From contig NZ_CP043311.1 in NCBI RefSeq assembly GCF_008807375.1, forward strand, positions 2,646,001 to 2,710,000: 64,000 bases of DNA. The letters are read 5' to 3'. A program made the position numbers and the translations under genes. Below the pieces are notes generated by a model, which had not been told where the DNA came from, did no database searches, and saw nothing but the letters and a program-made list of their open reading frames with translations. Of this stretch, positions 17,244 through 52,073 are shown piece by piece (within the stretch, counting starts at the first letter, position 1; every line of letters starts with the position of its first letter). The DNA comes from Pseudomonas lalkuanensis (GTDB taxonomy: Bacteria; Pseudomonadota; Gammaproteobacteria; Pseudomonadales; Pseudomonadaceae).

Positions 17244-17295
17244 TGTGGGAGCGCATTCATTCGCGATGCTTTTCTCGACTGAAGTCGCTCCCACA
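17244..17295. repeat. REP-like palindrome
   Basis: TGTGGGAGCG on the left pairs with CGCTCCCACA on the right around the core ATTCATTCGCGA. It fills the gap between pobR and the convergent doxX gene and may end both transcripts. Confidence 0.8.
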
Positions 17296-17312: not shown

Positions 17313-17822
17313 TTATCTGTACCGCCTGGCAATCAGGTGGTCGATGGACAGCATCCCCGGCCCCTGGCTGACCAGCAGCAACAGGCTGGCGGCCCAGACA
17401 CCGTGGGTGGGGTAGGCGTCGGGGTAGATGAAAGTCTGGATCACCAGGGTCATGCCCAGCAGGGCCAGGGCCGAAAAGCGGGTGGCGAAGCCGATGAGGA
17501 TCAACAGCGGGAAGATGTGCTCGGAGAAGGCTGCCGCATGGGCCGCCAGTTCAGGCGAGAGGAAGGGCAGCTTGTATTCCTCGGTGAACAGCGGAATGGC
17601 CGAGTCCGACAGGTGCGGGATGCCCAGCACGAAAGTGCCGTCCACCAGGTCGATGGCCAGGCCTTCCACCTTGGTCTGCCCGGATTTCCAGAAGATCGCG
17701 GCAATGGAAAAGCGCGCGACGAAGGCCACCAGGCTGTAGGGGATCCGCTTGCACAGCTCGACGGCCTGGGACACCAGTTTCTTCGGCAAATGGCTGTAGT
17801 GGATCTGGATGGTGGCGTTCAT
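17313..17822 (-). CDS. DoxX-family membrane protein of the bufferin operon
   Basis: Protein of 169 residues with four hydrophobic segments, for example VAFVARFSIAAIFW, IFPLLILIGFATRFSALALL and LLGMTLVIQTFIY, typical of DoxX/DUF417-like proteins. The motif RFSIAAIFWKSGQTK is the usual DoxX start. It is the last gene of a four-gene operon, overlapping bufC by 4 bases. DoxX partners are regular members of bufferin loci. Its exact part in maturation or electron transfer is not settled. Confidence 0.88.
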   Translation of the reverse strand: MNATIQIHYSHLPKKLVSQAVELCKRIPYSLVAFVARFSIAAIFWKSGQTKVEGLAIDLVDGTFVLGIPHLSDSAIPLFTEEYKLPFLSPELAAHAAAFSEHIFPLLILIGFATRFSALALLGMTLVIQTFIYPDAYPTHGVWAASLLLLVSQGPGMLSIDHLIARRYR

Positions 17823-18595
17823 GGCATCTGACTCCCGCTGTGGAGGGTGAACCGCGTGATCGCGCCGCCTGCCAGCAGGCGCGCGAGGGTGGAGCCCGGG
17901 TCGAAGCCGGCGTCGATGGCCAGTGCGGTGCCCACGGCAGCGCCCAGCGGGTTACCGGCCGCCAGGGCCTGGATGAAGGCCGCCGTGCCCGTGCCGATGC
18001 GGCTGACTTCCACCTCCAGGCCATTGCGCAGTACCAGCGCGCATTCGGCCTGGCCGGGATTCACCTCGGCCAGGTCCAGCAGCCCCTGGTGGGCGGCCCA
18101 GAGGGAGGCGATGGCATGGTCGGAGCAGACCACCGCCACCGAGGGATGCAACCGGAGCTGCATGCCGGGCAGGCATTCCGGGTCGGACAGGACGGCGGCC
18201 AGACGGGCCGTGTCCAGCGCCGGCAGGTCGGCTGCGTGGTAGGCGTGCACCTGTGCCAGTTCCAGCCGCGCCACGTCTGCCAGATAGGGCAGGCCGGAGG
18301 CCGGCGGGAAGGCGCGGATGAACGCCGGGAAATCCTCGCCGTAGAACGCCAGCAGCGGCGAGCGGGGCGGTGTCGCCTGCACGTGCAGGCGCGCCATGCC
18401 ATTGAAGAATTCATCGCCCACCAGTTGCCGAACCACCGGGAAGGTGTCGGCCAGGGCGTTGATCAGCGAAGCCAGCACGTTGTTGCGGTACACGGCGAAG
18501 CGTTGCGCCGGGTCGGAACCGTTCCAGGCCCGCAGGCCGGATGGGCAGGGTTGTTCGGGGTCGAGCAGGGCATGGGCGAAGCTGTCGGCGTTCAT
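17819..18595 (-). CDS. bufC: Bufferin maturation partner BufC (DUF2063)
   Basis: Protein of 258 residues. The N-terminal half has the DUF2063 pattern (RFAVYRNNVLASLINALADT, PVVRQLVGDEFF) and the C-terminal half is a peptide-binding-like domain. In the related MbnB/MbnC and BufB/BufC systems this partner recruits the precursor peptide to the iron enzyme. Its start lies in the bufB stop (4-base overlap) and its end overlaps doxX by 4 bases, so all three are coupled. Confidence 0.88.
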   Translation of the reverse strand: MNADSFAHALLDPEQPCPSGLRAWNGSDPAQRFAVYRNNVLASLINALADTFPVVRQLVGDEFFNGMARLHVQATPPRSPLLAFYGEDFPAFIRAFPPASGLPYLADVARLELAQVHAYHAADLPALDTARLAAVLSDPECLPGMQLRLHPSVAVVCSDHAIASLWAAHQGLLDLAEVNPGQAECALVLRNGLEVEVSRIGTGTAAFIQALAAGNPLGAAVGTALAIDAGFDPGSTLARLLAGGAITRFTLHSGSQMP

Positions 18596-19461
18596 GCCGC
18601 GTGCTCCTGGCGCAGCCGCCGTTCGGCCTGATGCGCTTCGCGCACCAGCATTGCCAGCGCGGGGATGTCGTTGTCCCGCTCGATCAGCGTGGGCAGCGGG
18701 CCGAGGCGGCCGATCATCTCGTCGTAGAGGGCCCAGACGGCGGCGTCCACGGGCGACCCGTGATGATCGATCAGCAGGCGCGCGCCGGCCGCATCGCGGT
18801 CCTCGGCGAAGCCCGCCAGGTGAATCTCGCCCACTGCATGCAGGGGCAGGGCATTGAGGTAGGCGCGGACATCGCGATTGTGATTGGTGCAGGACACATG
18901 GGCGTTGTTCAGGTCCAGCAGCAGGCCGCAGCCGGTGCGCTTCACCACCTCGGAAATGAACTCGGCCTCGTCCAGGCTGGAGCTGTCGAATTCCAGGTAG
19001 GTGGCCGGGTTTTCCAGCAGCATTCGCCGCTGCAGATGGTCCTGCACCTGGTCGATGTGCCGGCAGACCCGCTCCAGGCTGGGCCGGTCATAGGCGAGTG
19101 GCAGCAGGTCGTTGAGAAAGAAGTCGCCATGGGTGGACCAGGCCAGGTGCTCGGAAAACGATTCCGGCTGGTAGCGCCCGAGCAGCGTGGCGAGGCGGTC
19201 CAGGTGGGCCATGTCCAGTGGCTGGTCGGCGCCGATGGACAGACCGACGCCGTGGATGGAGAGCGGGTAGTCCTGGCGGATCTCGCCCAGGTAGCGGTGA
19301 AAGGGCCCGCCTTCCACCATGTAGTTCTCGGCGTGGACTTCGAAGAAACCGAGGTCCGGACGGGCATCGAGCACGTCCCGGTGATGCCGGGACTTGAGCC
19401 CGATGCCGGCCCGGGCCGGCAGCTGGCCGGCAGGAGCGTGGGGCAGAGGGGAGTGGGACAT
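18592..19461 (-). CDS. bufB: Multinuclear iron oxidase BufB (DUF692/MNIO)
   Basis: Protein of 289 residues of the DUF692 family, TIM-barrel enzymes with two or three iron atoms that modify cysteines of precursor peptides. Candidate metal ligands are in SIHGVGLSIG, LLENPATY, DLNNAHVS, GEIHLAGF, IDHHGSPVD and LIERDNDIP. The substrate is almost certainly the Cys4 peptide encoded 24 bases upstream. In characterised bufferins two core cysteines are turned into thiooxazoles that bind copper; that is family knowledge, not seen here directly. Confidence 0.92.
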   Translation of the reverse strand: MSHSPLPHAPAGQLPARAGIGLKSRHHRDVLDARPDLGFFEVHAENYMVEGGPFHRYLGEIRQDYPLSIHGVGLSIGADQPLDMAHLDRLATLLGRYQPESFSEHLAWSTHGDFFLNDLLPLAYDRPSLERVCRHIDQVQDHLQRRMLLENPATYLEFDSSSLDEAEFISEVVKRTGCGLLLDLNNAHVSCTNHNRDVRAYLNALPLHAVGEIHLAGFAEDRDAAGARLLIDHHGSPVDAAVWALYDEMIGRLGPLPTLIERDNDIPALAMLVREAHQAERRLRQEHAA

Positions 19462-19485
19462 GGCGTGCGCTCCTGCCAGGGGCGG

Positions 19486-19797
19486 TCAGCTCTTCTTCTC
19501 TTCCTTGAATGCCTGGAGCTGGCCGTAGCCGGTGGGCGAAGTGGGGGAAGCGGTCTTCTCGCAGGTGCCTTTCGGGACGTATTTCCAGGAGTTGCCCTGG
19601 TAGTCCATCTTCTGGGTGCCCGCGCAGGAAGTGCCGGCGCCGGCAGCGCAGTCGTTCTTGCCCTTCATGGCGACGCCGAAGCATTTCTCGTTGTCGGCGG
19701 CCTGTGCGCCTACGGGGGCCATGGCCAGGCCGATGGCGGTGCTCAGGGCAAGGGCGAGACCGGTTGCGGATACGACACTGGCAGTCGGGTTTTTCAT
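19486..19797 (-). CDS. bufA: Bufferin precursor BufA1 (DUF2282)
   Basis: Precursor peptide of 103 residues from the ATG at 19797. A signal peptide (hydrophobic [20 protein letters not shown], cleavage near AQA-AD at 33/34) sends it to the periplasm. The mature part has exactly four cysteines at 39, 50, 58 and 79, in [23 protein letters not shown] and KGTCEK. This is the DUF2282 pattern of copper-buffering bufferins, with the second and third cysteines as the usual modification sites. It heads the operon bufA-bufB-bufC-doxX. A strongly lysine-rich tail (FKEEKKS) follows the last cysteine. Confidence 0.92.
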
Positions 19798-20024
19798 GGT
19801 TGTTCTCTCCGTTTCTGGTGGGTCGAATGTAGGGCTGGTTGCCCAGAGGTGGCGATTCATACCGCTGGATGCATCGCCTTCGAAACAGGAGACAAGGCTA
19901 TCCGGGCGGCGTTACAGGAGGCGAGAAAATTTTCTGCGCGCCTGGGTGGGAACGCCGGCCCGGCGACGCTACCGCCCCTCACCCCGGCCCCTTGCGCCGG
20001 TGTGGGGCGGCTGGTCATCGCTGG

Positions 20025-20343
20025 CTAGCTCGACCTGCGATCATGCGGGTAGGCCGTTTCCACCATCCGCCGGTCCACGTGGTTGATGGTGGTGATGATG
20101 ATGCGCTCGGCATCGCACAGCGCGGGCGCCATGGTCCAGCGCCTGGTGGCGTCGTTGCCGATGCGCACCATGCTGGTGTGTGTGGCCAGGTTGGCGTCCA
20201 CTTCCGGCACCGGGTCGTAGAAGCCCATGCTGAAGCGCACTCGGCGGATGTCGTCAGGCGAGCCGGTGCGGAACGGCCAACCAGAGGGCGCCGCCCGGAG
20301 TGCCTATGCCCATGCCGCCGAGTAGAACGCGTCGCGTGTTCAT
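20025..20343 (-). pseudogene. Remnant gene, frameshifted, downstream of the oxidase remnant
   Basis: Starts MNTRRVLLGGMGIG, with a twin-arginine-like or lipoprotein-like leader, at an ATG that overlaps the stop of the preceding frame (CCATGA). This frame meets TGA after 29 codons. A neighbouring frame then continues for about 80 residues (SPDDIRRVRFSMGFYDPV, NLATHTSMVRIGND, IIITTINHVDRRMVET) to a stop at 20025. The two pieces read as one damaged coding unit. I do not recognise the family. The overlap with the oxidase frame suggests they were once an operon. Confidence 0.5.
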
Positions 20344-20857
20344 GGTGTACCTCCTGTGTCCGGAGTGCCTGGTCTGGAAGGGCCGGCGGCGGGTGCCGCC
20401 GAGACCTCTTCCGGGGCGAGGGGACGCAGTTCCCGCAACCTGTCGGGCACCTGGCTGAGGTCCTGCTCGGGCGGTTGCCGGTCGACGACGAACTTCAACA
20501 CGCGAGGGCCGGGGCGGTTCTGGAACCCGTCGTCGTCGGCGCAGATGGTGCCGTAGTGCGGTTCCTTGAACTGCCCGGACCTCCCAGGGTGGGGCCGGTC
20601 TTGACCGGGCTGATGAAGTCGGCGGGGAAGCCGTCGCTCTCCGAGGCGGTGTGGCCGTTGTGCAGGTGTACCGAGTTTTCCGCTGAGCCGAATCCCTGGT
20701 GATCCTGGGGCAGCTCATTTCGGAAGCGCACGACCATGGGGCGACCGTAGTGTCCTACGCGCACGGGACCGGGCGCGGTGACCTCTCTGTCACCCCTGAA
20801 GCCCCATAAAGGTGGCGGAGGGTAGGCCGGCTTGAACACCGGGGCGGGACGTTCCAT
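20341..20857 (-). pseudogene. Decayed multicopper oxidase
   Basis: From an ATG at 20857 the frame gives a typical N-terminal region of a CotA/bilirubin-oxidase-like multicopper oxidase: PVFKPAYPPPP, GHYGRPMVVRFRNELP and the first copper motif region SVHLHNGHTASESDGFPADF. After about residue 95 a frameshift near 20575 is needed to continue with QFKEPHYGTICADDDGFQNR and RPGPRVLKFVVDRQPPEQDL, which is a late part of such oxidases. The middle of the protein and the C-terminal copper motifs are gone. It is therefore a shifted and internally deleted remnant. It points away from, but lies next to, the copper-related bufferin operon. Confidence 0.68.
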
Positions 20858-21304
20858 GGCGATCAGCTCGTGTCTTCATGGAAGCAGGCAGGAACGAGCT
20901 TTCGTGTGAAATCGCTCGAGTCTCGAATAGAGCGGCACGTCCACGGTTTGTGGCGGTGAAAGGTGGACTTCCTCCCAGGATGGGGTGGTCAAAATAATGG
21001 CGTTGCACCTTCATCATGAGGGTGGACCCGATGCCTTTGAAAATTGTTCCGGAGTTTCGACAAGCCTCGCTTTGCCCGAGCCGTCACGCGGCTGCGGGGC
21101 GTAACGGCGCCCGAACCGCCTTCTGCGTTTCGTCGCGTCTCTTGCCCTCCTGTCAAGGCAGCCGGGATGCCACCTTGACGGCTGTTGCCTGGTCACGAAA
21201 CTCAGGCGTCAGGGGCCGGATAAAAACTACAGATTCGCCAACGCTCAGCCCTCAATCAGCGGTACTGGCAACGATGACAATTGCTTCGGCTAGGGGAGGC
21301 AGTC
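20858..21304. other. 447-base gap with no recognised gene
   Basis: Upstream of the oxidase remnant on one side and of the Cys2 protein on the other. Short open frames here have no codon bias or family resemblance. It may include the lost promoter of the oxidase gene. GGGGAGGCAG just before 21305 is the ribosome site of the next gene. Confidence 0.4.
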
Positions 21305-51500: not shown

Positions 51501-52073
51501 TCACGCACCCTTGCACATCTCGCGCTCGGCTCCGACCGTCTTGCGGCAGTGGATCAGCGCGTCGCGGATCATGAAGTTGACCAGGGTAGGAGAGACGCCC
51601 AGTTCCTGGGCGATTTCCTTCTGTGGCTTGCCATGGATGCGGTACATCTCGAAGGCGTATCGGGTGCGTTCGGGGAGCTGGCCGAGGGCATTGGCCACCA
51701 TCTCCAGGGTTTCCTGGTGCAGATGCAGGGCTTCGGGGGATGCGCTGGCGTGCTGTTCCACGTTCAGGCCCTCTTCTTCGCTGCTGGAGTGGCGCAGTTC
51801 GAGGGTCTGCTTGCGGTAATGGTCGATGGCCAGGTTGCGCACGGTCTGGAACATGTAGCTCAGCTGCGCCTTGAAGGAGAGTTTGAGCAATGGGGCAGAC
51901 TGCAGCCTGAAGAAGGCGTCCTGGACGACGTCTTCGGCGCGGTAGTGGCAGCCGGTGATACGGGCGGCGATCTTGACCATCATGGAGCGATGATCGATGA
52001 AGGCCTGCAGGGATGAGTGGGGGTGACCGGCGGCAACGCAGTCAACAGGTCCTTGTTCTGGCATTGGGTTCAC
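51501..52073 (-). CDS. pvdS: Iron-starvation sigma factor PvdS
   Basis: ECF sigma factor of 190 residues. Region 2 is RAEDVVQDAFFRLQS and LSYMFQTVRNLAIDHYRKQT; region 4 is LPERTRYAFEMYRIHGKPQK and EIAQELGVSPTLVNFMIRDA. The end AEREMCKGA is also typical of PvdS. It directs transcription of pyoverdine genes from TAAAT/TAATT-N16-CGT boxes, two of which are in this window, and is held by the FpvR anti-sigma factor until ferri-pyoverdine signalling. A Fur box lies in its promoter. Confidence 0.96.
   Translation of the reverse strand: MNPMPEQGPVDCVAAGHPHSSLQAFIDHRSMMVKIAARITGCHYRAEDVVQDAFFRLQSAPLLKLSFKAQLSYMFQTVRNLAIDHYRKQTLELRHSSSEEEGLNVEQHASASPEALHLHQETLEMVANALGQLPERTRYAFEMYRIHGKPQKEIAQELGVSPTLVNFMIRDALIHCRKTVGAEREMCKGA

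Follow-up and report, generated by a model that had tools for sequence, protein, structure and literature searches.

Bufferins, their two families and a gene core of the order A-B-C-DoxX have been described in PMC12452194, in which they are reported to chelate copper. In Caulobacter, the sigmaF regulon was reported to be copper-induced and sigF to have a copper phenotype (PMC8224329), the sigmaF consensus being given as GTAACC-N16-CGAA (PMC3511200) and that of ECF group 16 being cited as tGTAACc-N16-CGAA (PMC3420878). A Pseudomonas version of the Buf1 cluster has also been described already, as Pep1. The operon analysed here lies in the window, by which we mean the whole 64-kb stretch of DNA under study, and its features are collected in Table 1.

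Table 1. Coordinates of the features of the window referred to in the text.
Feature	Position	Strand	Remarks
Inverted repeat	17245-17294		arms GTGGGAGCG / CGCTCCCAC
doxX	17313-17822	minus	169 aa; DoxX-family membrane protein
bufC	17819-18595	minus	258 aa; DUF2063 partner protein
bufB	18592-19461	minus	289 aa; MNIO (DUF692) bufferin maturase
bufA	19486-19797	minus	103 aa; Buf1 (DUF2282) precursor; Cys39/50/58/79
TGTAAC-N17-GTCTCC, ECF-type promoter-like element	19888-19916	minus	starts 119 bases upstream of the bufA start codon
SCO1/SenC copper-chaperone relic	~20040-20282	minus	downstream of the oxidase relic
Multicopper oxidase relic	20394-20872 (pieces ~20394-20522, ~20561-20872)	minus	two recognisable pieces
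Sigma70_r4_2 match	51546-51704	minus	probably an ECF-type sigma factor gene

The four genes bufA, bufB, bufC and doxX follow one another on the minus strand from 17313 to 19797, in the complete order and at exactly the coordinates of the original prediction, and each product matches its Pfam family: BufA DUF2282 (E 6e-25; 87.4 bits, cut-off 22.4), BufB MbnB_TglH_ChrH (E 1e-102), BufC DUF2063 (PF09836; E 2e-27; 95.5 bits, cut-off 27.2) and the doxX product DoxX (PF07681; E 6e-14; 52.9 bits, cut-off 23.6). The 4-base overlaps that had been predicted after bufB were found as ATGA at the bufB/bufC junction and again at the bufC/doxX junction, and 24 bases separate bufA from bufB. BufA carries all four Buf1 cysteines and is thus the four-cysteine DUF2282 peptide that had been expected, while the reading of the locus as a bufferin operon was borne out by BufB, which scored 379.5 bits against NCBIfam MNIO_BufB (NF050167), above the cut-off of 310. 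Since BufC and DoxX scored under the NCBI cut-offs for HvfC (41.6 bits, cut-off 142) and HvfX (37.1 bits, cut-off 80), they are regarded as family members and not as equivalogs of these proteins; a DoxX gene is common in Buf1 clusters, not universal. Judged by eye from the translation, the N-terminus of BufA resembles a Sec signal peptide, and the best solved-structure relative of BufA was not convincing (E 0.21). Scans of the 64-kb window for tRNAs and for Rfam families at gathering score found nothing. An inverted repeat, possibly a terminator or some repeat element, lies between doxX and a convergent AraC-family gene. The operon itself is a standard, intact Buf1 bufferin cluster with nothing unusual in it.

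The iron site of BufB was compared with that of VcMbnB, for which the reported iron ligands are His55, His91, Glu135, Asp165, Asn168, His194, Asp209 and Glu238; a further residue, His211, is likewise described as critical for the third iron (PMC8888699). Eight of these nine positions, counted by eye in a HMMER alignment to MbnB, correspond to H105, E150, D183, N186, H214, D232, H234 and E261 of BufB; the counterpart of His55 falls outside that alignment and was assigned to H70 from an IHG motif in common with 3bww. Read in this way, by eye from the alignments, BufB has the expected residue at all nine positions.

Conservation was assessed in 18 genomes of the genus, the genome of the window (own genome) counted in. 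BufB orthologues were present in 13 of them, the 12 relatives showing 73-93% identity, and bufA, bufC and doxX accompany bufB in order in each of the 13. Comparison of the four genes with those of three of the 12 carrier relatives gave dN/dS values of 0.13-0.22 in all 12 gene-by-genome comparisons, and the four genes are under purifying selection. These values, together with a gene order kept in 13 of 18 genomes, place the operon far beyond chance. A second, divergent Buf1 type, with a BufB at about 46-48%, occurs in G003 (in two copies), G007, G008 and G017, and in G004, two of the four MNIO matches were inspected and neither showed a BufA. Buf1 of either type is therefore found in at least 17 of the 18 genomes, making an intact bufferin operon a near-constant feature of the genus. 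A scan of named genomes confirmed at least 576 relatives, the best 80 of which were taken as named loci, that is, as stretches of up to 7 kb on each side, some of them ending at contig ends. By tblastn, these best 80 comprised 71 A-B-C-DoxX, five A-B-C, two B-C, one B-C-DoxX and one A-B arrangement; bufA was found in 77 of the 80, and in all 77 the aligned part of BufA contains the four cysteines. Among the matches listed, the nearest named record was Pseudomonas sp. JM0905a (93%).

The own genome also has a second MNIO locus outside the window (G000:C1, ~3129466-3131106; L185, 2467-4107), at which a precursor-like protein has EGKCG repeats and, by eye, EF-hand-like motifs. This locus is of the Buf_EGKCG/EF-hand kind named in PMC12452194.

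We hold, at a probability of roughly 90%, that the locus is a functional Buf1 bufferin operon in a bacterium of the Pseudomonas type, encoding an exported copper-binding peptide. The genes, their families, the iron-site residues, purifying selection, gene order and the promoter-like element are observed, and it is characterised relatives that suggest the chemistry, export, copper binding and sigma control. By analogy with these relatives, BufA would be made with a Sec signal, and in the cytoplasm the iron oxidase BufB, guided by BufC, would convert Cys50 and Cys58 to 5-thiooxazoles; after export the outer Cys39-Cys79 disulphide would form, and the periplasmic peptide would bind surplus copper, with DoxX as a putative membrane accessory. 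The shift of -2 Da per cysteine suggested in the original prediction departs from the literature, in which MmrA and FonA, relatives of the repeat type, are reported to lose 4 H per modified cysteine (PMC12538549, PMC13097082); to this, we infer, the outer disulphide of Buf1 adds the loss of 2 H more.

Besides copper, such a peptide may answer to further stresses, and copper may not be the main one, because a DUF692-associated RiPP gene set of P. aeruginosa was reported to be up on GlcNAc and with hypochlorite (PMC9023270), the gig operon of C. metallidurans is placed fifth among five copper-resistance systems (PMC10304878), and a related cluster of Microbulbifer was reported not to be expressed under copper stress (PMC12538549). 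It could thus be envisaged that the peptide serves chiefly against gold, cadmium, chromate, hypochlorite or oxidative stress, copper being a side effect, which would agree with the hypochlorite response in P. aeruginosa, with the reported response of Caulobacter sigmaF genes to chromium and cadmium (PMC3511200) and with that of gig to gold as well as copper (PMC10304878, PMC5413113). However, loss of sigF harmed Caulobacter with copper and not with chromate or cadmium (PMC8224329), and it is copper chelation that has been reported for bufferins (PMC12452194), so that we consider a chief role in another stress unlikely and retain copper binding as the preferred reading.

A dead multicopper oxidase had been predicted to adjoin the operon, and it does so, in the company of a dead SCO1/SenC gene (Table 1); the families of both relics were named from intact oxidase and SCO copies in G009. 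The window aligned with G012 in five blocks, the intervening stretches being absent from the window. An intact oxidase-SCO pair stands upstream of buf in four of the 13 carriers (G012, G009, G011 and G006), relics of the pair are present in two (the own genome and G015), with buf intact in both, and nothing was found within the fetched stretches of the other seven. Both oxidase/SCO query pairs matched the same seven sequences, and among the 80 named loci (the best of at least 576) L092, the same genome as G012, was alone in showing the pair. Elsewhere, the own genome encodes four near full-length oxidase relatives (59-63% identity), two of which were flagged for a single in-frame TGA, and an additional distant relative matched in two pieces. 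As the G009 oxidase scored above no NCBIfam cut-off, the best being PhsA (147 of 950 bits) and CueO (103 of 525), a role of the oxidase in copper tolerance is only putative.

The decay of the oxidase and SCO genes beside bufA in the own genome and in G015, with buf intact, makes it tempting to suppose, as the original prediction did, that the loss of a copper oxidase here was made good by buf, with peptide buffering in place of enzymatic copper handling. In contrast, buf is present in all 13 carriers whether the pair is intact, a relic or undetected within the stretch that was fetched, and the near-absence of the pair from the best 80 named loci likewise speaks against replacement. Because intact pairs coexist with buf in four relatives and the own genome keeps related oxidases, the idea is unsupported and largely refuted; we regard it as highly improbable and rejected it, which corrects an attractive story for the dead copper oxidase.

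An ECF-type promoter-like element, TGTAAC-N17-GTCTCC, precedes bufA in the window. TGTAAC lies 100-155 bases before bufA at all 13 genus loci and on the opposite strand at none of them (200 bases scanned), and N17-GTCTC follows it in 11 of the 13, with CTCTCC in L008 and GTCATT in L014 instead. Among the 77 named bufA loci (from the best 80 of at least 576), 73 have TGTAA[CG] within 200 bases upstream, all but L125, L127, L129 and L163. Mononucleotide shuffles would yield 5.7 such loci, and the reverse strand has the motif at three of the 77. When a -10 of loose definition was required too, 66 of 77 were observed where 0.4 were expected; these loci are mostly Pseudomonas and not independent, and the looser pattern was picked after the sequences had been viewed. 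A first, stricter pattern fitted only six of the 80 named loci (the best of at least 576) over 500 bases. Genome-wide, the strict element gave two matches in the own genome against one for a backward control pattern, and the corresponding counts were 7 against 14 in six genus genomes and 6 against 3 in five Pseudomonas genomes; the second strict site of the own genome (L044) was discarded as lying antisense in a ribosomal-protein gene. The element is thus remarkable by its place and not by its genome-wide number. The one extra TGTAAC-TCTCTAG site of a P. protegens genome (L172, ~1501-1529) has a second MNIO gene (279-1124) close by, which runs on the other strand.

The first half of the element is the -35 of the Caulobacter sigmaF consensus, while its second half is GTCTCC and not CGAA. 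Transcription of bufA probably starts at the element, driven by an ECF factor distinct from sigmaF. Alternatively, the element could be the binding site of a regulator or a leftover of common ancestry, as might be argued from the search for a cognate sigma gene, which found none, from counted loci that are mainly Pseudomonas and not independent, and from sites per genome no higher than the backward control; or it could be read by a distant sigma factor of the ECF16 group. EcfF of Bradyrhizobium, a member of that group, is reported to read GTAAC(g,a)-N14-15-(c,t)CG(t,a) (PMC3420878), and the -10 half is therefore variable within the group; since this motif also fits one of the 13 genus elements (L006), a distant group-16 sigma is a conceivable reader. 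Against these alternatives stand the occurrence of TGTAA[CG] at 73 of the 77 loci, far above expectation and the other strand, and a -35 half identical to the sigmaF consensus (PMC3511200), and we find them doubtful. Taken as a promoter for an ECF factor other than sigmaF, the conserved element offers a concrete handle on the missing regulator of Pseudomonas bufferins. In the literature consulted, nothing was found on a Pseudomonas bufA promoter or on a link between bufferins and oxidases, which is weak evidence of absence.

In the genus, each of the five loci of the divergent Buf1 type carries TGTAACC-N16-CGAA, the consensus of sigmaF (PMC3511200) and also the one cited for ECF group 16 (PMC3420878); this sigmaF box stands at none of the 13 loci of the window type. 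SigmaF-like genes (E 1e-12) were found only in the four genomes with the second type, in five copies, of which three were flagged for a single TGA either inside the matched frame or at its end, and NrsF was above its cut-off in the same four genomes, with one match below cut-off in G009. None of the 13 carriers of the window-type operon had a sigmaF-like gene at E 1e-12 or an NrsF above cut-off; the own genome gave no NrsF match at all, and its lack of a sigmaF-like gene holds for E 1e-12, which a more distant relative could escape. The sigmaF-like protein of L091 was also used as a tblastn query against 98 sequences (12 genus stretches, five second-type stretches, 80 named loci and the whole window). 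It matched all five second-type stretches and one of the 80 named loci (L171; best 80 of at least 576), and had no match in the window or the 12 genus stretches.

A relaxed pattern, TGTAAC-N15-18-GTCT, gave nine sites in the own genome against 12 for the backward control. One of them lies at the start of a candidate ECF sigma gene divergent from a catalase-family gene, and this candidate was rejected: with the region aligned in all 18 genomes, the site falls within the sigma coding sequence and TGTAAC is kept in 11 of 18, so that it is a coding coincidence. Upstream of an ECF sigma gene, all 18 genus genomes (L207-L224) have an inverted repeat of the TTTATTCC / GGAATAAA type, one base off in L212, and in the own genome the gene divergent from this sigma gene is of the catalase family. 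The window itself contains a Sigma70_r4_2 match, probably marking an ECF-type sigma factor gene (Table 1).

We tentatively propose, at slightly less than even odds, that the genus holds two mutually exclusive Buf1 lineages, one with sigmaF-like and NrsF genes next to the operon and with GTAACC-N16-CGAA (four genomes), the other with a TGTAAC-N17-GTCTCC-type element and neither regulator found (13 genomes), the latter rewired to another ECF sigma factor, perhaps one dedicated to the operon. If so, this second lineage would answer to a different envelope signal.

Among known systems, the Buf1 cluster CC3254-CC3257 of Caulobacter (DUF2282, DUF692, DUF2063, DoxX) has the gene content and order of the window operon, is reported to be copper-induced (PMC12452194, PMC3511200, PMC8224329) and has a GTAAC-type -35 in common with it (PMC3511200); it differs in its regulators, neither NrsF nor a sigmaF-like gene (E 1e-12) having been found in the own genome, and in the -10 half, which is GTCTCC here and not CGAA. 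The copper/gold-induced gigPABT operon of Cupriavidus metallidurans has a counterpart small periplasmic protein, a DUF2063 protein and a DoxX-like protein (PMC10304878), but is transcribed divergently from rpoQ, an ECF sigma gene of its own and a neighbour that the window operon does not have. HvfABC-HvfX, the oxazolin system of Haemophilus, and other captophorins combine an MNIO with a DUF2063/RRE partner and a DoxX-like protein, as here, and carry 5-thiooxazole on cysteine (PMC13419390, PMC13097082); their precursors have repeated cysteine motifs, whereas BufA of the window has a four-cysteine DUF2282 domain instead. The Pep1 cluster of Pseudomonas (2021) has the same four families, listed in an order equal to that of the window operon, and was predicted in another strain set, where it correlates with the suppression of Streptomyces scabies (PMC8719888).
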